Assembly: GCF_964355755.1 (NCBI RefSeq)
Contig: NC_092673.1
Location: 13,337,001 to 13,401,000, forward strand
Length of the DNA: 64,000 bases
Direction: 5' to 3'
From: Antedon mediterranea
Lineage: Eukaryota > Echinodermata > Crinoidea > Comatulida > Antedonidae
Part shown: positions 2,006-62,444 of the stretch, in pieces
How the letters are laid out: the number at the start of each line of letters is the position of its first letter
Position numbering within the stretch: position 1 is the stretch's first letter
Notes under the pieces: generated by a model
What the model was told of the DNA's origin: nothing
What the model saw: the letters and a program-made list of their open reading frames with translations, nothing else
The model's database searches: none
Made by a program: the position numbers and the translations under genes

Positions 2006-2550
2006 ATCACCGATATTTATAACGGCGACAAGACGGGTCTATTTTGGCAAATGCTTCCAGAAAAATCATTGCGATTTATTGTGAAAGAAAATCACTGAGG
2101 AAATCAAGCTAAAACTTGAATAACTGTCCTTGTTGCTGCTAATATGGATGGCTCCGACAAGCTGCCATTATTTGTAAACAGTAAGAGTAAAAACCTGAGA
2201 GCCTTCAAAAACATTAAAAAGTTACCCGTGGAATATGCAAATAACAAAAAAGCGTGGATGACGGGTGTGCTTCTTGAGAATTGGCTAAATAAATTGAACA
2301 ATAAAATGAGAAGGGACAGTCGAAAGATTGTCATGGTAGTGGACAATTGTACGGCACACCAAAAATCGATCTAACCCTCGTAGAGCTGGTGTTTTTACTG
2401 CCAAACACAAATAGCATTACGCAACCTATGGACGGCGGCATAATAAGAAACCTTAAACATCTTGGCTACTCGCAGGTTGGCTGAAGATGAGTTCAAGTGG
2501 ACGTTTTTAGTGCTTGGCAAAATGTCCCCCTACAAACTGTAAACAGATGT
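2006..2550 (+). pseudogene. Tigger/pogo-like DDE transposase, left part, interrupted by the 10.85-kb element
   Basis: Reading on the plus strand gives the central part of a Tigger-type (DDE_1) transposase: NGDKTGLFWQMLPEK (normally NADETGL), then MDGSDKLPLF, an open piece from 2144 to 2374 with KKLPVEYANNKKAWM and the second aspartate motif VVDNCTAH. After a frameshift come LLPNTNSITQPMDGG and VDVFSAWQNVPLQTVNRC, ending near 2550. In-frame TGA codons near 2096 and 2126 and the frameshift mark it as dead. The matching C-terminus lies at 13586-14160 on the same strand, so the two are read as one gene split by insertion. Confidence 0.85.
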
Positions 2551-2691
2551 GATATTTCTAACCACAGTATCCTGTGTATAACCACAATGAATATTACTAA
2601 TCATTTTATACTAGTAGATTAGAATACTTTTTGTTTAGTTACTTTCACTTGTACATTGAATATCGAACAATAAAGATCATATTAGTATTAG

Positions 2692-2723
2692 CATGGAGGA
2701 AAAAATAAAAGGAGATCTCTCAA
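2692..2723 (+). repeat. Left terminal inverted repeat of the 10.85-kb element
   Basis: A 32-bp stretch from CATGGAGGAAAAAATAAAA to the CTCAA at 2719-2723. Its reverse complement is at 13509-13540 without mismatch. Confidence 0.8.
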
Positions 2724-2840
2724 ACCTCTGATCAAACACTTATGTGAGATACCGCGCTAGAAACATAAACTATCTTATCTTTCTGGAATAAACAAGCAGA
2801 TCGTATTAATCCCTTGTTTGCGCATGTTCATACGATACAG

Positions 2841-2848
2841 TGACGTCA
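2841..2848. promoter_or_regulatory. CRE-like palindrome TGACGTCA upstream of gene A
   Basis: A full CRE palindrome lies about 100 bp before the gene A ATG and within 160 bp of the element's end. It is a plausible promoter site for CREB/ATF-type factors. Function is inferred from position only. Confidence 0.4.
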
Positions 2849-2946
2849 TATTTACTTCTCGACACTCGCTCGAGTTCGTTTTGTTATTTACCCGGTTTTT
2901 TTTAAATGCTGTCTATCGGTGATCTGAACGACGCGTTACGAAGTTA

Positions 2947-4432
2947 TGGCGAGAGTTAGCGAAGAAGAAGAGATAGAGAATGATTTTTTTTTGTTTTTTT
3001 AAAGAAGAATTTGATGTTGATGATTTGCCAGAAGTTATTTTTGATTTCGAAGAGGAGGAAGATCATAATATAAGCGATGAAAATACAAGACCTGGTGCTG
3101 CTAAGCTAGGCCAACAAAGTAGCCTTCCACCGCCATCAACGTTAACGCCTACAAAAACAAACAAAGTTCGGTCGGCGCCAAGGAGTGGTGGTATGTTATT
3201 TATAATTGCTGATCAGCCCCAATCAATAGTATATCACAAAGATAATTTAATTTTTTTCTGGGCTGTTTTAAAATTACAAAAAGTTATTTAGATATAATTA
3301 CTAGCCTACTACTACTACTAGCCTAGGCCTAAATATCTACTATAATAGGCCTATATGGGCCAGGCGGATTTCCCGGCTAGCTAGGCTAACTACCTAGCTA
3401 GTAGGCCTAGTAGACTAGGCTAGTAGTATAGTAAGTAGTATTTTTTCCTCCATGGTACTATTAGTATATTATTCAGTGATGGTACCTAGATTTGGCTGAA
3501 TTAGGGGACAAAGACAAAACAGTCCCAAAACAATTAAGCAACAATTATTATTGTGGTTGAACCAATGGATTTTAAAAAAAATTCTTTTCTACAGGTTGCT
3601 CCAAAATTGTGAAAACGAAATCTTCTAAGAAAAAGACTGAAAAGGAAACACAACAAAAACAAGGTAAGGCATTTTAAATGTCTTTTTAAAATTAAATGTT
3701 ATTGGAATGTATTTATTATTATAACAGTACAAAGAGTAATAATTATTGCTTTGCTTTCAGCGGTTGTTCGACCAAAGGTGATATTTGACAAGGATGCAGC
3801 AGTTGGTAAAGCTACATCTTTTGAATCTGCGCTGAGAGAACTAATTCACCATCCTACTGTATGTACAACAGTGGATTTCCAATGGCGTTGGCTGCTCTTG
3901 AACTGGCAAAGTCATTACTTGATGATATTGATTCCGAATTGGTTAAAAGTTTTTCAAAGAAGCTACTGGTTGACATTTGGGCTATTGTCATCGCAGGCGA
4001 TAAAAAAAAATTAAAGCCAGAAGCATATGAAATGGTTTACATTCAATTTCACAAATACATTATTTCTGCCTCTGCCAAACAGCAATGGATAGATCTTGTC
4101 AACTTTGTTAACATTGGAAACCCAAATAATCATGCCCATCACTTTTTGTTAAGGAAAATTTAAAAGATGTAATGAGTGAAAGAAACAAAGTGGATTTACC
4201 GGAAAAGGAGGAAGAAGACAGCAGCCCTGTAAATAAACATTTGGAAGAAGTACTTCGCTATACTGCTGGATATGTGCCTTTTGCCCTCCACAAGAGTTAT
4301 AGCAAATTAAAGCCCCATTCCCTACGTTTTTTGAGATCTAATTTAAGATCACAAACTATATTTAATGTAAAAATAATACTATATGGTCATATTGCGATAA
4401 CTTTTTTCGTCTTTAAACGGTTAAAAATGTGA
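2947..4432 (+). pseudogene. Gene A of the composite element: unknown protein with RYTAGYVPF motif
   Basis: The ATG at 2947 opens MARVSEEEEIEND, then a poly-T tract breaks the frame, which resumes at about 3001 as an acidic segment (EEFDVDDLPEVIFDFEEEED). Exons 2947-3190, 3595-3663 (lysine-rich, KTKSSKKKTEKE) and from 3761 join in phase 1. The third exon holds a helical region (ALAALELAKSLLDDIDSELV) and near its end LRYTAGYVPFALHKSY, a motif of the RYVAGYV type found near the ends of several transposon proteins. Further frameshifts near 3880 and 4147 are needed to read through. The reading ends abruptly before the gene B promoter, so the C-terminus may be lost. I do not recognise the family. 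It may be an accessory protein of the transposon. Confidence 0.55.
3300..3440. repeat. Cluster of TAGGCCTA / CTAG palindromic motifs
   Basis: Dense overlapping AGGCCT, CTAG and GCTAGC palindromes and a (CTA)n run. The same vocabulary recurs at 4830-5160, 11075-11170, 13010-13300, 16900-16965, 19190-19265, 22045-22270, 26410-26590 and 63560-63790. Non-coding, low-complexity sequence. Confidence 0.6.
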
Positions 4433-4466
4433 AAAATAAGTCGATTTTAATAATTATAGCGGCCCG

Positions 4467-4493
4467 CTATAAATCCCAAAATGCTTTGCGCGC
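4467..4493 (+). promoter_or_regulatory. ZNF143/Staf-like promoter motif before gene B
   Basis: The stretch TATAAATCCCAAAATGC followed by TTTGCGCGCG resembles the long Staf/ZNF143 site (consensus around TACAAITCCCAGMATGC, then WTTGCG). It lies about 120 bp before the gene B ATG in the only GC-rich patch of that intergenic region. THAP-type proteins share part of this site in vertebrates. The match is by eye and binding is an inference. Confidence 0.4.
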
Positions 4494-4610
4494 GGATTGA
4501 TATTTCGTTTTGGTAACTGTGATACGCCACATGAGATTGGAATTCCCATCTGGAAAAACGTAGCGATGATGAGAATGATCGGCGATTCGCGATGAGAAGA
4601 GAACACAACA

Positions 4611-7600
4611 ATGGAAGCGTCAACACCTTCAACATCTAAATCGGGTCGTCCCCGCTTAGTTTTGACGGATTCTACGAAAAAAAGAAAGATACATGAACGC
4701 CGCGACAACACGAGGGTATCCTTATTATCCTCGTTTGACCGATGGAAAGAGTTACAAAAATCACTTGGGCTAGCAGGCAAAGGCAGTGACGCTATGTTGG
4801 CCGAGACGCTGATGGATTTCTGGTAAGTAGCCTAGTTTAGGCCTAGAGTAGAGGCTAGGCTAACTGATTATGATGTTTCACGATCGGTACAAATTTAGTT
4901 TTTTCCCCCATTAAAATGATAGATAAAGTAATTAATAAATTTCTTGACTTTTGATATATCGGTGTCTCTTGATTGACTTTATACCAATTTACGACTAATT
5001 TCCATATAAAACGAAGCCTACACAGTGTCGGTAGGCCTAGGCTAGAGCTACTAGCTAGAGCATAGCCCTATATAAGAATTAATAGAAACACATTAAACTC
5101 CAGCCTTTGGCTATGGTTGGCCTAGCTAGGTCTGCTATAAGTAGTAATCTAGGTCATTTAAATTGTAATTAGGTATCCTGTTGTGAATTGTTTACACAAA
5201 CACTAACAGTGTCCTTGTAACATAAATCTGCTTCATAGACTGCTATACACTTTACAGTTTCTAGATGGCCTTGTATTTTTGTACCACTGGACACCAGTGG
5301 TTAAGAGGTCATAAATAATCAGAATTGATGATTAAGAGCCTTTTTTGTAATATAACACCTGAATGAGGCTCTCAAGGGGATTGTACACATAATGAATAGG
5401 AGGTACTGTATAAAATTAGACCTCCATGCATAATGTTTGAAGGCCCATGATCTAACACCAGGGCATATTCTATCTAACTAGTAGGCTAGACCTAGTAGTA
5501 ATTTAGCTATCTGATAAAATGATATTAATATTAATTGGCTCTATAATTGAATTCCTTTCATCAACAGGCTCAAACATCATCAATCTATATCAAAATTGGA
5601 ATGCCAACAGGAAACTGTGTCTACACCATTAAAATCAAAGGAAATTGATATGCTTCCCCGTTTTGCCGATTCAGATGGATCTTCATTGTCCTCCATTTCC
5701 GTAGCACAGTCATTGGAAAGGTATTTTGTCACTGTCTAAGAATGTATATTTTATAAAGTAATTCATGACAATGATGTGTTTGTACTGTAAATTTTCATAT
5801 TTTTAGCAATCAACAACACATGATAGTTGGTTGTGAAGAGCAAGATAGCTCAACAACTGCGGATTGTTCGCAAGATGTATCTGGTGTTAAGGAAATAACT
5901 GTAGACATAACTAACTCCTGTGATGCATCATGGGTGCCTGGAGAAGATGACCTTGATGAATTTCGAGTTGACATGTCTCTGAGGTAAATTGTTTTATATC
6001 TTTACTTTATGAACAACAACAACTAGTTTTTCTTTAATAGAAAGCAAATAATATAAATGTTTTTATGTACAGAAATTCTGGACCTCTGGATGTTGAGGAC
6101 TTATTCACCCTGCATGAAATAAATATTCAAGAGATGGGAAAAGATGAAGATACTGAAGATAAGGAAACAAGCCCCCATCGAAGAAACCTAACTTGTTTTG
6201 AAGATACAAAACACCTAACAGCGGGAATTGTCTATGACACATGTCTGTCAGACCTTGTAAATATCAAGGTACCTGCGACTTGTCCCAAATGTGATGCAGA
6301 CCAAATACAGGCACACTTTGAAAAAGTTGGCACAGCAATAAATGTAAAATGGGTAAGTTTAAATAAGCACATATATAGCACTTACTGAGTCATGTATGCA
6401 CACGTTCCATGAAAACCAAAATGGATGAACGAGCAATTTTTTAATGAGAGGAGAGTTTGTCATGCAATGATCGAGATTGCATCCGATTTTACTTTGTTTG
6501 TTTTTTAAACAAATACATCCACAGATATGTCCACAACAACATGTTGTTCAGCGATGGTATTCTCAACCAAGATTCCGAAACATGAATTACGGAGACTTCA
6601 TTTTAAGTATGAATATTCTACTCAGTGGCAACAATTTCACTAAAGTGGAACAACTGCTAAAATTTTGTAGATGGGGTTCAGTCTCCAAGAGCACCCACTA
6701 CAGGATACAACTGTTATATGGCTGCCCATCTATTGAAAACTGTTGGACAGAAACAAACAACAACATCATCCAGAAGAACCTTTCCAAAGAAACAGTTGTA
6801 ATTGGTAATGTTTGTATATTCATAATTTGTAATAAGACCTTAAATGTATAATGAAAACGTATACATTTCATTGTGTGAACATGTCAAGGATTAATATTAA
6901 AACTAGGCTTATATATTATTTTTGAATAATGAAGTATTTTTGTCATTCAGGAGATGGCAGAAATGACTCGCCAGGTCACAGTGCTCAATACCTGACCTAC
7001 ACATTAATGGACCATGACTCGCATGACATTCTGGCACAACATATTGTGGACAAAAGAGAAGCAGACTTAAAGAGTCCAAACATGGAATTGCTTGGGTTAA
7101 TTAAGTGCCTGTCATCATTGCATGACAAAAATGTCAATGTCTGTGAACTTGTCACAGATGCTCACATCCAGATAGCTGCATATATGCGTGAGTTTTTATT
7201 ATACGATACGAGAAAAGTTTATTGCAATCTCAAATAAAACATTTAAAATTGAAGTTTCAGAAAAATAATTATGAAAATATGCCATGATTGTTGTAATTGA
7301 AGGTATTTCTGTACACTTTAATAACATTACAAATCTAATGTCTATAATTGTAATTACAGGACGACATTATAGTACGGGTGAAAGGGCCATTAAACACCAG
7401 TTTGATGTCTGGCATGGTAGTAAGAACTTAGTGAAGAAGTTGTCTGAGGTATGTTGCATTGTCAATTGTACATACTGTATTGGTTTTTACATCATAACAG
7501 ACATTAAAAATAAACATCTGAAATCACTGGAATTTTGAATTGTCCAATAACAAGCGCCATTCCTAGTTTGCTTGTTTACTTTGAATTGTGCATTAATGAA

Positions 7601-9028
7601 ATCTTTTATACTATAATATATTTCAGTTAAACATTAATTTCATTAATTATTATTACCAAAAACAGGCAGCAGAACATAAAGACAATAAGTCATTAATACC
7701 ATGGATACAGCCACTGGTTAACCATTTCTGGTACTCGTGTCAAGTGGCAAAAGGTGACATCCAAGTGCTACAGGTCTTTTTCTTTCAATATCTTATGCAT
7801 GAACTACTGCATGTAAACAAATTCAGAAGGAGATGAGGTAAATGAGATTGATAGGCTGACGAATCAACTCATATTATTCCAAAGATGTGCTATAACTATA
7901 ACTCTAATATCAGTGTTTGTGATTACAGAAAACCCTTTATTCATCACTTCATCATGTTGCTGGGGAGCATGTATGGGCAACTGGGAACTGTAGTCACATC
8001 AGCATAGAAAATGTTGATGGAAGGGAAACAATCCGGGACAATGAAGAGCCGAACAGTGACAGACCCTATTTAACAAGAGGATCATCGGCAGCTATAGCTC
8101 TTGACCGTGTGTTGTACAACTCCCGCTTTGTCAACAATTTACCAAAATATGTAAACTTCAGGTAAGCTAAAGTAAATAATTGGAAAAACCTTATTGCATT
8201 TCTACTTTTATTTCAATTCTGAAAAAAAAAATATTCTTTTGTTCATAAAAATTTGTTGCAAATATACTGACATTATAATTTACACAATTTGCAGACATAC
8301 CATAATATAATCCTAGCCTATGCATCTAAACGACAGAGTTTTCAGTAAGTTTATCATGGTTTTGTATTACAAAATAATTACCATTTAATATAAAAATACA
8401 TACAGGTATATACAATGCCAATAAATTAACTACAATATTTTATACATATTTTAGATACACAGCTTTCAGGGCAAGAAATCGTTTAGCTGCATTAGATTTC
8501 CAAATGCACAAAGACAGAATACAGAAGTGTGGTGCAGATGGAAACCCATTGTAAGAATATTTATTTATCTTTATTCTAGGTAGTTTGAACACGACAATTG
8601 CATGAAATATGTAATACAACAAATATACCAAAAAAAATACAATTTTAATAATAAACAAATATTTAATCTGTTCTTTTTAAATACAAAACCTGAACATTAT
8701 CATTAAGTTTTTCATTTCCAACCAATACTGTATTACATTTACTATCAGATATGAAATAATAATTTTCTTTGTCAGATGGCACAAGCACTACAACAAGAAG
8801 TCAAACAGTTGGTCTGCAGAGAAGGTGTTAGTTGAGAAGGACTTTGCATACATACAACAAATACAGGAAAAAATCATAGAGGCAAGACTTCAAGACAATG
8901 AGAGTATTTACAGAAATACGGAAAGGGAATCAGGCGATCCACGACAATTGAGGCAGACAATTACCAAAGTCCTACCACCATCTACAACAGATTTAGTGAA
9001 GCAACATAAATCTAGATTCGATAAGTGA
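4611..9028 (+). pseudogene. Gene B: multi-exon DDE transposase (ISL3-like fold), catalytic-Glu segment deleted
   Basis: Twelve exons join with GT-AG borders: 4611-4822, 5568-5720, 5807-5983, 6073-6352, 6525-6804, 6951-7187, 7360-7448, 7666-7773, 7929-8161, 8295-8344, 8455-8550 and 8776-9028, about 720 codons. The N-terminus (KSGRPRLVLT, then a basic DRWKEL helix) looks DNA-binding. Exon 4 has a CPKC pair and exon 5 WYSQPRF. The catalytic core reads GDGRNDSPGHSAQY (first Asp, 6953-6967), VTDAH (second Asp, 7157) and HQFDVWHGSKNL. The third acidic motif HTGxLExxH, intact in the copy at 59 kb, is broken here: exon 10 reads RHT, then after a deletion and frameshift HNIILAYASKRQSF. So the enzyme is probably dead, though nearly all splice sites and the C-terminus survive. 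The family is common in fish and invertebrates as unnamed proteins; the ISL3 link is inferred. Confidence 0.8.
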
Positions 9029-9034
9029 GATAGT

Positions 9035-10986
9035 TTACATTTGTACATTCGGTTGGAAACCTCTATAAACACCTGTAGGTGATGGGAATTCATTCCGGAT
9101 TCGCCAAACACAACAAGATGGTATGATTCGTCTGTCGCCTTTCATCAGGCGTTGATGCCGCCAATATACAAACAGTCTGTATGCATGATGCCGGTTAGAT
9201 TTGTTGGCTTCCTCTGGTTCCAAATCTGTTAATTGTCTGAAGTCTCTCAGCATAGCTCTTGAGAATGCCAACTGCATCTCATCTAATACATACAGTGCCA
9301 TTGTCTAATAAGATTTTACAAATAAAAATTTGTTTCAAATATAACTCTTTTTTTTTTTATAACTTGCATGGATGCAAGTGGATGGATGAGATAGAACCAA
9401 ATTATTATATTTTAAACTTTAAATAATTTTGTACAGGCCATTATTTACCTCTTCTTTTGATAAGCAGTATTCAGGTCGTAAATTGCAACACATCTTTTCT
9501 AGGTCAGATGGCATTTCCCGGCAATTCTTACAAATGCACCATTCTGGGGCCTCATGTAGTGCTTTTGGGATATCGTCGTTTGATTTGTCTGATTTATCTG
9601 ATAATTTTTGTAAAACATCAATGACCATAGCTTGATTATGCTGCAGACATTCAAACATCAGGTCTTTCAAGTCATTCAGTTCTAACTCATCAATCATTTT
9701 CTGAAAAATTAATCATTATTTTACAAGTTTGAATATTTTGATATATTCAATATGTATCATTTTAAAGGTTGATAAAAGTTAACTCACTTTATATTTTTCC
9801 ATTCTTGTTCGCCGAATTAACTGCACTCTGTCGACATCTTCGGATGAAATGCGAACCCCAAGTATAACTTTGTCTTTCTTTTGTTTGTCTGATATACAAA
9901 ATTAATTATCTACAGTACTACAAAATTGATTATTTATTGTACTTTATTATGTATGCTATTGGGACATATGTAATACAAAATAAAAACATAGTTTTTTTCC
10001 TTATATTTTGGTAAATCAAACATTGTATTCAATTTGGAATACAGCAGTTGTAATGTATATATTATATGTACTTAATTTACCTTTTTTGTGTGTTTTCAGC
10101 TTGGGCACAGCTTTCTTTTTGGGCACAGCTTTCTTTTTTGGCACATCTTTCTTTTTAGGCACAGCTTTCTTTCTAGGCACATCTTCAGTCACTGAAATTA
10201 AAATTTAATATAATTTTTAATAATGTACGAACTTACCTTTTGGTGGTGCTTTTGGCTGGGACAAAGCTTGCTTTTTGGAAGCACCTTCAGCCACTGAAAT
10301 TGTAATTTATTAAAATGACTGAACATTTTAAATTGTTGTTAATTACGTTTAAATTTGATATTGCTTCTAGTGAGGGCCCCAGTTGTTGTTGTTGTCATAT
10401 AATTATAAGTAACTGAATAAATGTGTATATATTTACAGTTGGCATAGATCATGTACTGTATAGCTCTGTAATTACAATACTAAAAAATACCTTTTTATCG
10501 TGCTTTCGACTTTGCAGCTTCTCCTTTCTTTTTGGACGCATCTTTAGTTACTGAAATTTAATAAAATGTGTCAGTCAATCAATAACTATGTCAACTAACT
10601 TGACATATACCATGTTTGATAATTATTGGCCTATTAATATTATTTGGTTGACATTTAAAACAAACCATGACAGAAAAAGTAAGGCAAGCCATTACGATTC
10701 TATATTTCGATTTAAATGTCTGGATTCAGTTTTATATTATTTATATTATTGTTAGAATTTATAATTTAGATTTGATAATTTGAAACTTTGTTCCATTTTT
10801 AGAAGTATTCTTGTACTGCATTTTATGTTATAAATTGTTGGTATCCCACCAACTGTAAGCTCATTGAAATGTGTGGACAAAAACAAATTCTTGTATGACT
10901 GTAATGTTACCTTTAGTAGGTGTTTCACCCATTTCAAAATCATCAAAGTACGATGGACTTTTTGGTTTTCTTTTTCTATGATCCAT
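9035..10986 (-). CDS. Gene C: lysine-rich protein with P2X7 C-terminal (ballast)-like zinc domain
   Basis: Seven minus-strand exons: 10986-10911 (ATG, MDHRKRKPKSPSYFDDF), 10550-10491, 10293-10237, 10191-10081, 9888-9788, 9700-9449 and 9304-9035. All join in phase and total 309 codons. Exons 2-4 are lysine-rich linkers (KKAVPKKKDVPKKKAVP) with phase 1-1 borders. The last two exons hold the P2RX7 intracellular domain signature: WCICKNCREMP, CCNLRPEYC, AYRLFVYWRHQRL, DRRIIPSCCVWRIRNEFP and GVYRGF. In mammalian P2X7 this domain binds zinc and nucleotide; here it stands alone without an ion channel. One TAA lies in exon 10550-10491, whose length is a multiple of three, so skipping it restores the frame. 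This is the best preserved gene of the element. A DNA-binding or regulatory role is a guess from the basic linker. Confidence 0.8.
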
Positions 10987-13508
10987 CTAATAAAAAAGAT
11001 AGTAGCCCTAATTAAAATGAATTGTTGTATAATAATAAATATAGACATTAACAAATGTACCTTGTGAAATAAAAAGGTACTAGGTCCTAGGCCTACTAGT
11101 TCTACTCTAATAGGCCTAGATTCCTAGCTAGCTACAGTAGTAGTAGTAGTAGTACTAGTAGCCTAGGCCAATTTCTGACGCATCATGAAGAAAATGAATA
11201 ATAAATTAGCCCCTATTTTAGTTATTATGTATATGATTTTACTAAAAAAATTAAGCAAATCTGGGATAAATGTTAATGGTATACATCCACTTGGGCACTT
11301 AGTTATCCCTACCGCTATGCCGTCAAGGCCGTTGACCACTACTATTCGCCGATGAGTATAGCCTAGCCTAATACTGTACTACTCTAAAGACTAGGCTATG
11401 CTCTAGTCCTACGACCGGCCACGGGACAAACGTAACAGGAATTAGCCTACAATACATGATCAACGATGGTTGAAAACTATGCAATTTACACAGCTCCTCA
11501 GATTTGTTTTAACAAGTTAGAAGTAGAGCTTATATGTACAAATAATATAATTCAATACGTACATTTATCAGGCTAGGCCTAGGCTGTGTACACCACGTAC
11601 AATCAGGTCGCGTCCACGGTCGGCTTCTCGTCGCTTGTTGAAAATGTTTATGCTGCGTCGCGTTGTGTCACACACACCACCACTAGCACACACACACACA
11701 TGTAGCATTTGAACGGATGCGATTGTTCGACGAGTAACGGTTTGTTGAGAAAATTCATTCACGGACTACATTTTCGGGTGCAAGTTTTTCTCATTTTTTC
11801 ACAATTAACCATAAAACGTACATTTAAGACGCGAAATGGCATGGTTTAATGTTTTTAAAGTGATATATATGTATTATTTTCCAAAAAACGTCCAAAATTG
11901 CAGGGAAAGGGTCTTTAAAAGGAGAGACTGCTAAGCGTACTGCTGTGTACTAAGTTCTTGGAAAGTAAATACTAGCAACGGAAACCCACAAACATTTTTG
12001 GAATACACAAATGGTTGGATCCGAAAACAAAGTCGAGGTGGACTATTTCATGTCAAAGATAATGTTTACCTTTTTTTTTTTAAAACACTTGAACTTGAAA
12101 CTAAAAAACATAACAAAGATGAATGCAATGATAAACAAAAATATTAAATCTCGATTTACATACGTTTCGTATATGTTTCGTATAGGAAGTCCACTTTGTA
12201 TACGAAATGTATACGTCAATTCAGAAGTTCCAGCCCCCATAATAAACATATACGAACCGTATACGATCATTTATAAACAATTTCCTAATTATACGATCCG
12301 TATACCAGGGAGTTACAACTCTCTGCATATACGACGACAAACTGCATCGCATTACCAAGCGAAAAGGGACTGTCCCTCTTTTTACAAGACAACGATAGCA
12401 TACGTTTACGATGGCAGGAGCATCTTGACTTCAATAATTAGTGTACAATTTGTTTGTTTTTTTCAGTCGGTATATGTACATTAAATTCCCTATGATGAAT
12501 ATACCTTACCTTGACCTTTAGTTCATAGTTTTCGCAAATGAAAAAAATTGGTGCTGTATTTTACGAGAGGTTGTTTTTCTAGCAAGCATAAAAACCCACC
12601 CAGGCTGTTCTGCCTTGTTTATCCCCTCTGCTATTTCTTTACCTTTTGTATGTTCCATTAATAAGTGAATCACACAAAATGTGCTGTCATTAATTTGAAA
12701 GTGCTATAAATAATATTAATGTACTTGGAAATAAATAAATAAATATTAAATTGGGCCCGCAGTATATTAAATTTAAAACGAGTAAGTAAAATCCATAAAT
12801 TACGATTTAATAAAAATGTAGAATACATGTGGCTCCCTATTATTTATATACATGGAATGATCCAAATAAATTCGCCCAAAACGTGCCTGTGTGTGTGCTG
12901 TATGCATGCATGCATCACATGGATGGATCAGATTTCATTCATTTTCAATCATCATTGTTGATTTTTTGGCTACGGGTTTTAACTCATAATAAAATAAAAA
13001 AATGGGATGTAGGCCTAGTTACAGTAGGCCCAAGTAGATAGTAAATTCGATGACTTCTAGCTAGCTAGGCTATAGGCATATTATAATTGTATAGATCGAA
13101 TATGCAGTAAATAGCTACTGCAGCAGCTCTAGTAAACTAAGAGTAACTAGGCCTGGGAAAAATAGGCTTAGGAAACGAGTCTGTGGTACACTCATTGTGA
13201 AAATAAGCTAGCTAGCTTTACCCCATATATTAGATTTGGTTATATTGTATTATTTTAATAACCTACTCTAGCTAGTAGTATATCAACAACAATATTTCAT
13301 TCTTATTTTCTAGATCAGGTTATACATTTCTTTACTCCACACAAGCAAATTCGTCTATAGAGGTCGGAGATTTTCACAGCGTGTGTCGGTACGTTAGTCT
13401 ATACACAATTGATTCGCGAGTACAAATCGGAGTTACTGGAGCGGAAAACCGTAACGTTGTAGCATAGGGGATAATTGGATTACAATTGTTTATAAACATT
13501 AAACGATC
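10987..13508. other. Right non-coding arm of the 10.85-kb element
   Basis: About 2.5 kb between the gene C start and the right TIR. It holds TAGGCCTA clusters, a CA-rich run near 11670-11702 and a TATACG-rich patch at 12168-12360. The ORF at 12011-12484 runs through poly-T and poly-A sequence and has no domain I recognise. A 5' untranslated exon of gene C may lie near 11060, but I cannot prove it. Confidence 0.45.
12168..12360. repeat. Patch of repeated TATACG/CGTATA motifs, partly inverted
   Basis: Within about 190 bp the words TATACGAA, CGTATAC, CGTATATG and TATACGATC occur at least eight times in both orientations, including TACGTTTCGTATATG facing TATACGAAATGTATACG. They could form imperfect stems or serve as clustered binding sites of the element. 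Confidence 0.45.
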
Positions 13509-13540
13509 TTGAGAGATCTCCTTTTATTTTTTCCTCCATG
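13509..13540 (-). repeat. Right terminal inverted repeat of the 10.85-kb element
   Basis: Exact reverse complement of 2692-2723. It is followed by G and then TATTA, the presumed target duplication. Confidence 0.8.
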
Positions 13541-13585
13541 GTATTACTACAACTACGCCTCGTGTATATTTTATAAACTATAAAA

Positions 13586-14160
13586 ATAAGTTTACACAAA
13601 CCGTTTCCAATGTGTACGACAATACCAATGAAGATCAGGTGGTGGTAAGTTTTTATCACATTGGTCTAATATCGTTATCCCCAATACCGTATTTTTATTT
13701 CCGTTTTCTGTATTCAAATAAAAGTTAAGACTAAACTATTAACACATTTTCTTTATTGTATTGTAGATAGATGTCGTACATGAAGAAAGAGACTTCGGTA
13801 ACATTTGTGAATGACTTGCTGCAACATTTGAGCTTCCCTCACTGGCTGATTACATATCTATAGCCGATAAAGATGCAGGTGTTGCCAAAGAGCTAGAGCA
13901 CAGCGAGACCATCGACCTACTGTAGTGTTAGATGAGGAATCAGACTCAGAAGAAAAAGAGGTGGACGCACAGCCAAGACAGACAATTTTACAACTTTACA
14001 GGAGATGTTTTCTATTGTGGACACAATAAGACGCTACAATCGATCGATTGTGAATCTGCCTGATGAAATTTCCATTATAGCCGACCGATATGAAGCCTTT
14101 TTAATGAAGGAATCGCATAAAAAGTTAATGCAGAAATCAATTACTGATTTTTTTAAATAA
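13586..14160 (+). pseudogene. Tigger/pogo-like transposase, right part (C-terminus)
   Basis: A short exon reading DNTNEDQVV ends at a GTAAGT donor near 13646. After an intron to about 13767 the reading is IDVVHEERDFGNIC, then LADYISIADKD, an acidic DEESDSEEKEVDAQ and finally MQKSITDFFK with a stop at 14160. The acidic stretch and terminal SITDFFK are typical of Tigger C-termini. Stops near 13813 and 13923 and frameshifts show decay. It continues the fragment at 2006-2550; together they frame the younger insertion. Confidence 0.75.
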
Positions 14161-43379: not shown

Positions 43380-45143
43380 AAAAACAAATAGCTGTGTATG
43401 ACGTATCCGTTTTCGTTATCGTAGCGTTGCAAAACCTCTCTAATATCAAATTAGTAATTACCTTTTTCACTTCCTGTTTACAAAGTCTTATTATAAGTTG
43501 AAACAAATAATCCCCTTCTGACATTTTCGTTCTCTTTTGAAAAGTCAATAACGTTACCACTTCTTCTCTTCAAAGCCCAAAAGACAATTAGAACAGAAAT
43601 GATTTAAAGTTACACAACATTGACCATTGTCTACAGTAAAGTTTATGTCTTTTTTATCGCTTTCTAATGCTATTTGTCTCCATTTATCTTGAAAGCATTC
43701 TTTAAAAAGTAATGTAAATTTCCAAAACTTTTCATTTACAGCACTGTGTCGAAAAGACAGTAAACAGGGCTTGTGGAAGACGGTGCCTTCTGGTCCACAT
43801 TTAACAATAGGTGATATTATTGATTCATGAGGATGAAGTACAGGCATGTCTATTTCCTCCAAAATATTTTCTAGTGATATGTTAACTGCCTTTCCTTCTT
43901 CTATTGCTCCAGGTGGTATTACCAACTTTATGTCTTCATCCTTGAGGTGAAGAGTTCCACCTTCAGAGCTCACATTTAATACCATACGTTGATCTGCAGT
44001 AATCAAAAAGTAAAAAAAAAATCAAAAGTTATATTGTTTCAATCCCTACAATTCTTTTTCAAAATATCTTTATAGGAACTTATGGGCCTCCGTAGTGAAT
44101 ACTGTATACTAGATTTTGTTAAAATCATGGTTACTGCTTACTAATACTCTTGAAGTTGACCATTTATTTAAATTTGTTTTGCACTGTTTTGTATTTTATT
44201 TTTTATTTTCAAATAAAATAAAATATAACTTTTGTCTCTCATATTTTACCTACCTTCAGGTAGCTTCTTGTAATGTGAAACGTTTGTCTTGTGAGTTTGA
44301 TACTTGGTCACTTTATCATGTAGAAACCAGATAATTCCAACAAGAAGTAGCCAAATACCTATGGCAATTCTTGTTGGTAATACACAGATTGAGATTGCAA
44401 AGACTGCAACTAAAAAGCTACAGAAGATCCACCAGTGCTCTGAAAGAGAAATTGTTTCTACTTTTTATAGATTTCAAAGATTATACCTTGATGAGACATT
44501 TGTGGCTGTGTCTGTCTGTCCCTCCATATGAAATTATTTATTTTGTGCAATTGTGTAATTCTCTAGAATTTTGACAACCTTTACACATATTTTGTGCTTA
44601 TATATAACTAGCAAGTAGCCTACTGTATACCCTAGTGTAGTTTAAAACCTTCCCAGTTACAATTCCCATCATTTGATACAGGTACCTAATTACGCCAAGC
44701 ACCAGTATCTAATACGCATTTAAGACATTACATTTGATCCAAGATGGCAGATAATATTCAAACTAAAATAAATATTGATATAAATTATAAACATTCCCCG
44801 TACAATTTAGGTACCCCATGTGTATGAATGCGTGCAGTATGCAACGTTTATAACAAACAAGCATACAAACTCGCTTTCTTATAATATAGATAATAATATA
44901 GATTCCTTATTCGTACTGCTTTATTTTCATTTATATGCCTATAATATGTGATTTCACATCTTATCTTCACATAATGAACACATTTCTTATTTTTTTATTT
45001 CTAATTATATTATACATTTTTAAACAGAAACAAAGCTTGACTTGACAATGACATATTCAAATTAAATTTTTAATTCTTAAAACTGAATTGTAAAAAATAG
45101 AAAGGCTTACTTACCATTACAAAAATTCTGTACCCATTTCAGG
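43380..45143 (-). pseudogene. Membrane-anchored ZU5-domain gene segment, copy 1 (frameshifted)
   Basis: Minus-strand exons: 45143-45115 (LKWVQNFCN), 44439-44254 and 43993 to about 43380, joining in phase. The second exon codes two hydrophobic helices (WWIFCSFLVAVFAISICVLP and IAIGIWLLLVGIIWF) and a short basic tail. The third codes a ZU5 domain: SSEGGTLHLKDEDIKLVIPP, GAIEEGKAVNISLE, SPIVKCGPEGTVF and KPCLLSFRHSA. ZU5 domains occur in UNC5, ankyrin, ZO-1 and PIDD proteins, often with UPA and death domains. Copy 1 ends FEEKKW and a stop at 43554 because of a one-base change relative to copy 2. The frame after it (LTFQKRTKMSEGDYLFQLI) is still readable down to a GTAAGC donor near 43379. The exact family is unknown. 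Confidence 0.7.
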
Positions 45144-47577
45144 CTAAAAAAAATATGTAAAATTCAAATGAGTATGTGTTTGTGTTATAAATAAATCTAA
45201 CTATTTAAAGATATGGTGACATACAGCAGGTATTATAATCATTTAAAAAATCATATCGGTGAAATAATTATGACAAGGATGATTTTTTTAAATCTTCCAA
45301 CCCGTTATATACTGTCATAGTGGAATATAAATGTACAGTTTCATAAACATACTTTTGAAGCCTGTTATAAAACATATACAATTACGTAAATTCCAAAATG
45401 ACAATATAAAGTTGTGTTCTATCTGTGCTTATATGACCAATTTACACACAAAATAATAAACCTAAACAAATACTAATAAAAAAGCTGTGTATGACGTATC
45501 CGTTTTCGTTATCGTAGCGTTGCAAAACCTCTCTAATATCAAATTAGTAATTACCTTTTTCACTTCCTGTTTACAAAGTCTTATTATAAGTTGAAACAAA
45601 TAATCCCCTTCTGACATTTTCGTTCTCTTTTGAAAAGTCAATAACGTTAAACACTTCTTCTCTTCAAAGCCCAAAAGACAATTAGAACAGAAATGATTTA
45701 AAGTTACACAACATTGACCATTGTCTACAGTAAAGTTTATGTCTTTTTTATCGCTTTCTAATGCTATTTGTCTCCATTTATCTTGAAAGCATTCTTTAAA
45801 AAGTAATGTAAATTTCCAAAACTCTTCATTTACAGCACTGTGTCGAAAAGACAGTAAACAGGGCTTGTGGAAGACGGTGCCTTCTTGTCCACATTTAACA
45901 ATAGGTGATATTATTGATTCATGAGGATGAAGTACAGGCATGTCTATTTCCTCCAAAATATTTTCTAGTGATATGTTAACTGCCTTTCCTTCTTCTATTG
46001 CTCCAGGTGGTATTACCAACTTTATGTCTTCATCCTTGAGGTGAAGAGTTCCACCTTCAGAGCTCACATTTAATACCATACGTTGATCTGCAGTAATCAA
46101 AAAGTAAAAAAAAAATCAAAAGTTATATTGTTTCAATCCCTACAATTCTTTTTCAAAATATCTTTATAGGAACTTATGGGCCTCCGTAGTGAATACTGTA
46201 TACTAGATTTTGTTAAAATCATGGTTACTGCTTACTAATACTCTTGAAGTTGACCATTTATTTAAATTTGTTTTGCACTGTTTTGTATTTTATTTTTTAT
46301 TTTCAAATAAAATAAAATATAACTTTTGTCTCTCATATTTTACCTACCTTCAGGTAGCTTCTTGTAATGTGAAACGTTTGTCTTGTGAGTTTGATACTTG
46401 GTCACTTTATCATGTAGAAACCAGATAATTCCAACAAGAAGTAGCCAAATACCTATGGCAATTCTTGTTGGTAATACACAGATTGAGATTGCAAAGACTG
46501 CAACTAAAAAGCTACAGAAGATCCACCAGTGCTCTGAAAGAGAAATTGTTTCTACTTTTTATAGATTTCAAAGATTATACCTTGATGAGACATTTGTGGC
46601 TGTGTCTGTCTGTCCCTCCATATGAAATTATTTATTTTGTGCAATTGTGTAATTCTCTAGAATTTTGACAACCTTTACACATATTTTGTGCTTATATATA
46701 ACTAGCAAGTAGCCTACTGTATACCCTAGTGTAGTTTAAAACCTTCCCAGTTACAATTCCCATCATTTGATACAGGTACCTAATTACGCCAAGCACCAGT
46801 ATCTAATACGCATTTAAGACATTACATTTGATCCAAGATGGCAGATAATATTCAAACTAAAATAAATATTGATATAAATTATAAACATTCCCCGTACAAT
46901 TTAGGTACCCCATGTGTATGAATGCGTGCAGTATGCAACGTTTATAACAAACAAGCATACAAACTCGCTTTCTTATAATATAGATAATAATATAGATTCC
47001 TTATTCGTACTGCTTTATTTTCATTTATATGCCTATAATATGTGATTTCACATCTTATCTTCACATAATGAACACATTTCTTATTTTTTTATTTCTAATT
47101 ATATTATACATTTTTAAACAGAAACAAAGCTTGACTTGACAATGACATATTCAAATTAAATTTTTAATTCTTAAAACTGAATTGTAAAAAATAGAAAGGC
47201 TTACTTACCATTACAAAAATTCTGTACCCATTTCAGGCTAAAAAAAATATGTAAAATTCAAATGAGTATGTGTTTGTGTTATAAATAAATCTAACTATTT
47301 AAAGATATGGTGACATACAGCAGGTATTATAATCATTTAAAAAATCATATCGGTGAAATAATTATGACAAGGATGATTTTTTTAAATCTTCCAACCCGTT
47401 ATATACTGTCATAGTGGAATATAAATGTACAGTTTCATAAACATACTTTTGAAGCCTGTTATAAAACATATACAATTACGTAAATTCCAAAATGACAATA
47501 TAAAGTTGTGTTCTATCTGTGCTTATATGACCAATTTACACACAAAATAATAAACCTAAACAAATACTAATAAAAAA
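43391..47577. repeat. Tandem duplication, about 2.09-kb units
   Basis: 43391-45483 and 45484-47577 are near-identical direct copies, offset 2093-2094 bp, including introns. Differences seen include AACGTTACCACTTC versus AACGTTAAACACTTC and single substitutions. The junction reads AATAAAAAA then GCTGTGTATG. It duplicates three exons of the ZU5 gene. Confidence 0.95.
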
Positions 47578-58576: not shown

Positions 58577-61500
58577 CATGGAGGAAATATACAATAAATA
58601 TATAGATAAACTGTACCAGTTATGACTAATAGGTATAGAATAAATAAATAGGTATATTTTTGCACATACTTGCATTAAATTACCTACTTAGCACACATGC
58701 ACGTGCGTCATTATTTTGCAAATAAAGTAATATTATATTATATTTATCATTTAATTTGTGAGATGTGGCTTGCTATGGCTTCTTCAGTTGTTGGTTTTGG
58801 TCCTCGTTTTTCAACCTTATGCTCCTCTCTTGCTCTAGTCGTGTCAGGATGAACAAGTGAAGATCTATTCTTGATACCTATATTTAAAACACAATGTGAA
58901 TAAAAAGAAAATCATAATTACTGTATCCTAATAGTAATGCATAAACTGCTTATATTATCACCGTATATTGTAGAAATATTGAAGACTATTAACCTTGAAT
59001 AGCTTGTTCAAATACGCCCTTCATTAAATCGGTCCTGAACACATAATCTTTTGGCTTCCTGACACGTTTCACCACATATCTCTTTGAACGTTTTGACCCA
59101 TTCGACCGAATACTTGTGGTCTATTTCAGCGTCTCGGCAAGTATGCAAGTTATGGTCTAATACTGCTAAACAGCCTCTTGCTACCATACACTCATGGCTG
59201 AAGTGACTTCGCTTGGGCATATACTTCAGTAGCATGTTATGGAATACCTCAAGATTTCCTGTATGGCAAAACTGAACAGCCTGAAAATTTAAACGTTATA
59301 TAATTTTAGTATATAGTATATTGTACAAAAACAGTACATTACAATAATAATAATGTTATTGATTATTACACCAATTACATTATGTAATTCTAATTACTTT
59401 AAACTTACATGTTGCATGTCTTTAAGGAACTTTGGCTCAACCACTACTGCTCGCAATGCTTGATGTGCTTCACTTCCTGCCTGAAGCCATGGCTTGGTGG
59501 TGCTCACATTTGTGGAATTCCTCAAAACACACCCACTTATGTTTGTCCACAATGTGATTGAGGATTGACATCCACCGTTCCTGTAGTAATATAAAATAAA
59601 TTTAATAAGAAATTAAACTGTGACAACATGTGCACATTAACTTACACCAATGTTAATTGTTATTAAAACTGTCTCTCCCTCAATTACCTTGAACTGTGTG
59701 CAGCTACCTTCACACGTTTCTGCTGACCACCAAAAATGATTTGAAATCGCCTTTTGCCATTGTCGCAGCTCCTGGTGTTTTTGGAAAATCTTTGTTAACT
59801 TTTTGCCTAAACTTTTGGCCATATGCCAGATGTCGAATTCATGCCGTATATTCGGGTGTTGTTCTCGCATCGTTTTTGCAATTGTTGCATGCCTGTCAGT
59901 CACAAGTGTATCGATAGCAATTTTTTGATCCTGAAAAGGCATAAAGAAAGATCAACTATTTTGCAAACCATTTAAACAATTTATCCAACCAGTTTACAGA
60001 CACAACAAAACCAACCTTTAGCTCATCAATGCATCTAATTAGCCCTTCGTTTTCAAGCCAATAGGAGTTCTTTACATTGTGTTCTCCCACAGCAACTGTT
60101 TTTGAACACAGAATAATGTCTGTTTTAGTATCCATTAACGAATACAGGCCAAACTCTGCATTGTGGCCAGGTGAGTCATGCCTGGCATCCCCTGCAACCA
60201 CTAGCTCACTTTGTACATTTTCATAACCTTTGAAACAAAAACATAAAATATTTAATTGTTTTGATATTCTGTAACCTTAGTAAAGTACATAAAACATTTT
60301 TGTAGTATTTAAACAGCCTATACTTATTACTAAATTTTGGTTAGTTTTGTTGATGATGCAATCACTTCATTTAGAGTTCATAATCCCAGATGTTTGCTTA
60401 CGTACCTTTGTGAATGTCTTCCATGTGAACTTTATACATTTCTTGTATGTTTGGCAGCAATATCTCTCTTTGAATGTCATAAAATGATGACTTCTTGATG
60501 CATGCTAAATTCAATGTCGTGCAGATCTCATCGAGTGTTGTAAAGGTATTCCCGCTAAATAGTGTTGCGGCTGCAAGGCTAACATTGCCAGCAGGCCTAC
60601 TGGTTGCACTACTGCATCTTGGTTGAGAACACCATTTAAAATTATGGCCACATAGACATATCCCAGTTACCACTAGCATACTACCAACAAGGCTTTTTTC
60701 AATATCAACTATTGGCTTTTTGCAGTTTTTGTAGGTTCGAATCCAACCCGAGAAGTGTTCACAAAGTACCGATCATTCATTACAATATATCAGAGTTTTG
60801 CAACACCTGATCAATTTGAATAATACAAATATTGATATGGCATTTGGTAGAATTCACAGCTTAAACTACCAGACACAATAGTACAATGGTAGTTATATTT
60901 GATCTTAACTGCTTATGGAGGTATTTCAATTTATTACTGTTGTGATCTGTACGTAAACGGATTATACTGTTTAATTGGACAATTATACCATTGATGAATA
61001 ATTTAGACATCCATGGTTATACCTAAGGACACGGCAAACTATTCCGGATTGTAATGTTTTAACGTTCGAGATCCGAATAGTATCAGGGCCCACTCTTAAA
61101 AAGTATAGCCTGGAAGCAACATTTGATAAACCACACCAATATAAACTATTTGTATTTGTTAAAATGTGTTTATTGTATACTGTGTGTATTTGTGTAAGTA
61201 TTTTACATTTTGGTAAAGTAAATTTGTGTTCTAGATTACCTTTAAAATACAATATGAGTAAATATCAGAAATTAGTATACTCAAAATACTATTCTATGAG
61301 GTCGTCTTTGTAAACGCAATTTTCAAATTTTCGGAGATTGTAATGTAATAAATTTCAAATTCTGTCCCTAAGACTTGGATAGTCGGCTTTTGATTTGTTT
61401 TATTGTACTACTACAAGTTTATAAAACATACATTTAATTAAATCACTATTTACATATGAAGTTATCACGTGATCTTTGTTCGGTCGATAATTTAAATAAA

Positions 61501-61879: not shown

Positions 61880-62444
61880 AACATAGTAGTGCCGTCAAAG
61901 AACTTATAACACAAGAATTTATTGTCAAAAGCACAAAAACTCATTTTATTATAGACAACTTATCAATAATATTTCAATTGCCCCATCTTGTGAATCGAAA
62001 TGGGAAACACTTTTTAGAAATGTAAACCTCGATTGGAAAGAAATAAAACATGTTACGAAATTAGCACAATTTAATTTTAAGCTGATACACTGTATACTTG
62101 CATGTAAAAAACGTATGAAGGTATGGAAGCTATCTGCTACAGAGTTATGCGACTACTGTCGAACTGAACCAGAAACAGACAAACACATGCTATTAAAGTG
62201 TAAAAGTGTTCAACTTGCATGGAATAATTTTAATTCCATGATTCAAGACTGCTATACACTTAACGAAACAGTTAATAATTGGATAGATATAGTTACAGGA
62301 ACAAAAAGTAAAAATGTAAATGAATTAATCTCATTGTTAACCTTCTGTATTTATAAATCTAAATGTATCAAATCAGAAAAATATACAAAAAGATCAACAA
62401 TGATTTGGAGCTTGTTCCGTATAGAACTCAGAACTATTAACTAA
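61880..62444 (+). pseudogene. L1/Tx1-like LINE ORF2 C-terminal fragment
   Basis: Reads ISIAPSCESKWETLFRNVNL in one frame, then KLAQFNFKLIHCILACKKRM and an open stretch 62115-62444 with CDYCRTEPETDKHMLLKC, the zinc-knuckle-like C..C......H....C box at the end of L1-type ORF2 proteins, and W. It sits in reverse orientation inside an intron of the second transposase. Confidence 0.7.

Follow-up and report, generated by a model that had tools for sequence, protein, structure and literature searches.

We analysed a window of 64,000 nucleotides from the genome of the crinoid Antedon mediterranea (C4:13337001-13401000 of a 354-Mb assembly), in which a transposase gene (gene B) and a gene for a protein with the cytoplasmic ballast domain of the P2X7 receptor (gene C) stand tail to tail. 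We are confident that these two genes form one Kolobok transposon of the Kol0 type, 7604 bp long (4311..11914), which is nested in an exon of a third gene (gene A) inside an older transposon with 32-bp terminal inverted repeats (TIRs). The data show the insertion of one element in the other, two distinct pairs of ends whose target duplications differ, and a tail-to-tail linkage of ballast and transposase genes that recurs across the genome. A preliminary description of this DNA had taken the 32-bp repeats as the ends of a transposon carrying genes B and C; the two genes have TTAA ends of their own at 4311 and 11914, and two transposons that resembled one can now be told apart.

The left edge of the inner Kolobok was located with its relatives. 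A DNA search with positions 2680-4600 (best 40 of 1698 candidates scored) returned at least 39 other places and one short fragment, or 41 matches including the window, all of them inside 4295-4529. All five of the relatives that we fetched begin with TTAA followed directly by AGCCCCATTCCCTACG, have unrelated flanks and are 97.6% identical over the common 206 bp. Because these five start at TTAA with unrelated flanks, we place the edge of the transposon at 4307-4310, which is the left TTAA duplication; the left end, AGCCCCATTCCCTACG, occupies 4311..4326 on the forward strand. TTAA occurs 649 times in the window; its occurrence at 11915 gives the best inverted match to this left end, with 12 of 16 bases against 9 of 16 for the runner-up, so that the right end lies at 11899..11914 on the reverse strand and the right TTAA duplication at 11915..11918. 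The termini read AG...CT, in keeping with the 5'-RR...YY-3' pattern of Kolobok, and the TTAA duplications at 4307-4310 and 11915-11918 are those of the same superfamily. Another pair of candidate ends, at TTAA 4421 and 11805, was rejected: the match is A-rich, and 4421 falls inside the repeat common to the left-end relatives.

Gene A supplies the complementary evidence. Its 5' part, which contains frameshifts and belongs to no Pfam family, runs from 2947 to 4310 on the forward strand, and its continuation (VLSSWK...RGGLFHVKDNVYLFF) occupies 11919..12100 on the same strand, the coding sequence VLSSWKV...FLEYTNGWIRKQSRGGLFHVKDNVYLFF picking up immediately 3' of the right TTAA. Two paralogues, L078 on C11 and L079 on C5, are unbroken from an AGYIP motif to an RGGLF motif; the spacing from AGY to WK is 32 and 28 residues in these two and, by a hand count across a frameshift, about 33 in the joined flanks of the window. 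Both halves of gene A are adjacent in four of its five other loci, and the fifth displays the second half only. From the left-edge relatives, the best TTAA match, the resumption of gene A and its uninterrupted paralogues, we therefore delimit the inner element as 4311-11914, the right edge at 11914 being read, in one copy, from the match between the two TIRs and from the point at which gene A resumes.

Between these ends, gene B (4611..9028, forward strand) encodes a Kolobok-type transposase of 705 residues in 11 exons and bears out the earlier report of a DDE-type transposase gene between the 32-bp repeats. The gene model was built by hand; all ten introns have GT-AG boundaries and the frame is open. 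We read in it the motif DVWH, which fits the C/DxxH motif of Kolobok transposases. Pfam gave a weak Mutator match (22.1 bits, under the cut-off of 26.5) and no THAP domain, and a search of the PDB gave nothing useful. Gene C (10986..9035, reverse strand) faces it, with the two stop codons 6 bp apart. Its product matches the Pfam family P2RX7_C with an E-value of 9.4e-30 and the P2X7 chain 6u9v with an E-value of 2e-19, eight cysteines being aligned, and thus has the ballast fold of KolX, the second protein of Kol0 elements. The gene had been called intact-looking: its ballast identity is well founded, whereas an open frame requires that a putative small exon, 10551-10498, be left out, since a TAA precedes the donor of that exon. 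Elsewhere in the window, 59415-60222 on the reverse strand is a piece of a distant Kolobok-type transposase (25-41% identical to gene B, E-value 1.5e-22); no credible ballast gene turned up near it in a tblastn with gene C.

We then consider how ballast genes are placed in the genome as a whole. Searching with the gene C protein, which as a query carried 18 residues of the putative small exon 10551-10498, we scored all 91 candidates and obtained 55 matches, which merge into 46 loci at a merging gap of 6 kb; gene B gave at least 70 matches in at least 48 loci, a lower bound from the best 63 of 174 candidates scored. At a distance limit of 5 kb, and counting the window's own pair, 30 of the 46 ballast loci have a Kolobok-type transposase nearby, compared with about 0.06 expected for random places, and in all 30 the genes are tail to tail, on opposite strands with their 3' ends facing. 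The linked loci fall into at least six ballast-transposase families, grouped by eye from scores and DNA identity, and loci of one family are not independent. The expectation that gene C homologues would be linked to the transposase is thereby borne out, and with it the proposal that a DNA transposon spreads the ballast domain along with the transposase, which offers a route for capture of the domain by P2X.

One family, K1, comprises five loci on five chromosomes (L045-L049) that are 99.8-100% identical over about 2.3 kb, which suggests recent movement; its relatives are about 96-97% (L068-L070) and about 84-86% (L066) identical. The nine loci of K1 and its relatives all start with TTAA followed by AGGAATGCAGT and have unrelated flanks. 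The single K1 copy that was read through (L045 together with L072) ends in GGATTCCT followed by TTAA, and its two ends are alike in 23 of 24 bases; it encodes a KolX protein (P2RX7_C, E-value 1.3e-18) tail to tail with a transposase that bears a THAP domain (E-value 3.5e-17). In a further ballast family, L052-L055, all four loci end in CTCCACT followed by TTAA, and one of these, L053 (C4:13333039-13333182), lies 3.8 kb before the start of the window and likewise ends at TTAA. Two other observations concern ballast sequences. For a family at 31% identity, one end was read in a single copy (L080), which led nowhere. At C8:3538937-3555382, three ballast-domain pieces with internal stops (L062, L063 and L067) lie within about 16 kb, an unexplained local array in which no transposase match was found within 5 kb.

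Several points weigh against our assignment. The ends of the inner element are alike in just 12 of 16 bases, and its right end is known from a single copy. The left-end relatives diverge beyond about 206 bp and so belong to another family. The whole inner element was seen once among the best 39 of 1917 candidates scored in a DNA search with the entire element, so that further copies are possible. The sole other copy of gene B at the DNA level among those scored, at C4:14.01 Mb, is decayed and stops at the gene B stop codon, with no ballast gene in 35 kb. Finally, 16 of the 46 ballast loci have no transposase match within 5 kb, although a direct tblastn finds a tail-to-tail transposase at one of these, L065. 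The unlinked loci and the lone copy of gene B are also what would favour regarding gene C as a normal gene of the host whose position next to a transposase is accidental. Against this stand the 30 linked loci, with the caveat that same-family copies are not independent, their uniform orientation, the five nearly identical copies on five chromosomes and the fact that KolX has already been published as a Kolobok protein, in the part of that report available (PMC9587614). We regard a chance neighbourhood as next to impossible, and a lone host gene is ruled out by the transposase linkage.

The outer element has a separate set of ends. Its repeat, CATGGAGGAAAAAATAAAAGGAGATCTCTCAA, is perfect between the left TIR (2692-2723, forward strand) and the right TIR (13509-13540, reverse strand), as had been noticed at the outset; in 100 first-order Markov sequences of equal length, perfect inverted matches reached 20 at most. 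The TATTA flank that had been seen at both ends is present as well, within a 7-bp target duplication, GTATTAG at 2685..2691 and GTATTAC at 13541..13547 (a 6/7 match). A 28-base TIR pattern, with up to two mismatches allowed, matched five places in the genome, two of which are the ends of the outer element itself. The remaining three hold four short insertions, each under about 170 bp: one at L003, in which 131 bp match the right end of the outer element at 94.7% identity; one remnant at L004; and two at L005, one of which has the left end at about 90%. Copies of the left TIR are found in L003 and L005. The duplications are GTCAGAC twice at L003 (exact), GTTTATT/GTTTATA at L004 (6/7), and GTTGAAC/GTTGAAG (6/7) and GTGAAAC twice (exact) at L005. 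With the window included, they are thus 7 bp long in five insertions, exactly repeated in two and 6/7 matches in three.

A single transposon bounded by the 32-bp TIRs and carrying all three genes, A, B and C, would agree with the perfect TIRs and the 7-bp duplication that surround everything. It is at odds with the TTAA-flanked ends that lie immediately outside genes B and C, with gene A being split exactly at those ends and unbroken in its paralogues, and with the TTAA ends of the other ballast transposons in the genome whose ends were seen. Contrary to what had been anticipated, other copies with the same TIRs lack gene C: it is absent from all four examined (at L003, L004 and L005), though all are short. 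We consider a single transposon very improbable, and the nesting rules out that the 32-bp TIR element carries genes B and C as its cargo. Our preferred reading remains that of a Kolobok inside an older element. Of that older element no intact copy was found, and its true transposase may be unseen. The broken gene A is most likely part of it; since neither the TIR pattern search nor the gene A search of the genome revealed another copy of gene A with these TIRs, we infer this membership rather than observe it.

As a side question, we asked to which superfamily the outer element belongs. Its ends start with CATG, which we take to resemble the Drosophila P end, and its 7-bp duplications read GTNNNAC in both exact cases. 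In the accessible parts of two reports, the TIRs of P elements are 31 bp long and their duplications 8 bp, and the ends of zebrafish Pdre2 start with CATA (PMC7776569, PMC10983969), so that the outer element shares with these the initial CAT, a TIR of about 31-32 bp and short duplications. It differs from them in that its duplications are of 7 rather than 8 bp and that no P-type transposase was recognised: the gene A pieces and a 240-residue paralogue matched no P-element, THAP or other Pfam model, and the paralogue pieces had no credible match to a PDB chain. Membership of the P superfamily is therefore a possible but somewhat unlikely assignment.

Two further features lie between the outer ends. 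An additional exact copy of the outer 16 TIR bases, at 3439..3454 on the reverse strand, falls in an apparent intron of gene A and is unexplained; we asked whether a small nested element could have its right terminus there, and saw no matching duplication. At 12152..13290 there is a truncated fragment of a repeat that recurs at 30 or more other genomic sites, 78-95% alike among the matches listed; other copies extend past both sides of it, and it dominated the search with the whole element. Farther along the window, the open reading frames 43557-44021 and 45465-46115, both on the reverse strand, are nearly identical and encode a ZU5 domain (E-values 2.3e-21 and 4.9e-20), a local duplication, and the open reading frame 61890-62444 on the forward strand matches zf-RVT weakly, with 23.4 bits against a cut-off of 27.5, and is probably a retroelement remnant.

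From these observations, we conclude that an autonomous-looking Kolobok with genes B and C inserted at a TTAA in an exon of gene A, which is itself enclosed by the 32-bp TIRs of another transposon of greater age. The gene B transposase would act on the TTAA ends by cut-and-paste, and gene C encodes the accessory protein KolX, whose C-terminal domain corresponds to the P2X7 cytoplasmic ballast and which may assist or control transposition. Alternatively, KolX could be a passenger that merely persists in the element without effect on transposition. The decayed copy of gene B has no gene C nearby, which would suit a passenger; the ballast gene is nevertheless retained tail to tail with the transposase in the six or more families that we grouped by eye, and KolX is conserved across the Kol0 lineage in the accessible part of the published account (PMC9587614). 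We therefore think a passenger distinctly unlikely. The nearly identical K1 family offers material for testing the role of KolX in the transposon.

The transposon origin of the ballast domain has been known since 2022. In the part of their paper available, Kojima and Bao showed KolX, a protein of Kol0 Kolobok transposons, to have the ballast fold of P2X7, stated that a fusion with KolX gave rise to P2X7, and described Kolobok as a family whose DDD/E transposase inserts at TTAA (PMC9587614); as published, a KolX exon would have been captured by a P2X4-like gene to give P2X7. In the open-licence literature we found no further report that links Kolobok to P2X7 or the cytoplasmic ballast to transposons, or that treats KolX. 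Our genome-wide count, which shows that Kolobok transposases and ballast genes move together in a constant tail-to-tail arrangement, supports this published origin. The accessible text of another report describes a region of the P2X7 ballast that binds guanosine diphosphate (GDP) and, from sponge to sea urchin, a linkage of ballast genes with two markers, reported as ancestral synteny (PMC7016195). Partial text on the P-element family, which is separate from Kolobok, states that it needs guanosine triphosphate for strand transfer (PMC7776569). A guanine-nucleotide role of KolX is a guess from the GDP-binding region, to which the P-element requirement is only analogous. We speculate that the ballast protein could be a functional part of the Kolobok transposition machinery that binds guanine nucleotides and has stayed next to its transposase across animals. 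The marker synteny would then reflect self-linkage of the transposon rather than a conserved order of genes, and the GDP site in the P2X7 ballast would be an exapted transposition control; we hold this to be rather unlikely. The two markers in the available text of PMC7016195 might be the transposon's own genes.

Compared with known systems, the inner element shares with Kol0 Kolobok a transposase with a D/CxxH motif, a KolX with the P2X7 ballast fold, TTAA duplications and RR...YY ends; it differs in being nested in another transposon and in ends alike in 12 of 16 bases. Pfam found no THAP domain in gene B, in contrast to the K1 transposase of the same genome. KolobokP, as far as the accessible text describes it (PMC9587614), resembles the inner element in pairing a Kolobok transposase with a downstream accessory gene on the opposite strand. 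KolobokP carries long direct repeats at its termini as well as a His-Me nuclease, whereas the accessory protein here is of the P2RX7_C ballast type and no direct repeat emerged when 2501-13740 was compared with the window by self-BLAST. With the C-terminal ballast of P2X7 and with Nanor, as available in part (PMC7016195; PMC9587614), gene C has in common the zinc-binding domain P2RX7_C, with eight cysteines aligned to P2X7; unlike the P2X7 ballast, it is unfused to a channel, is encoded by a transposon and has a lysine-rich N-terminal part.

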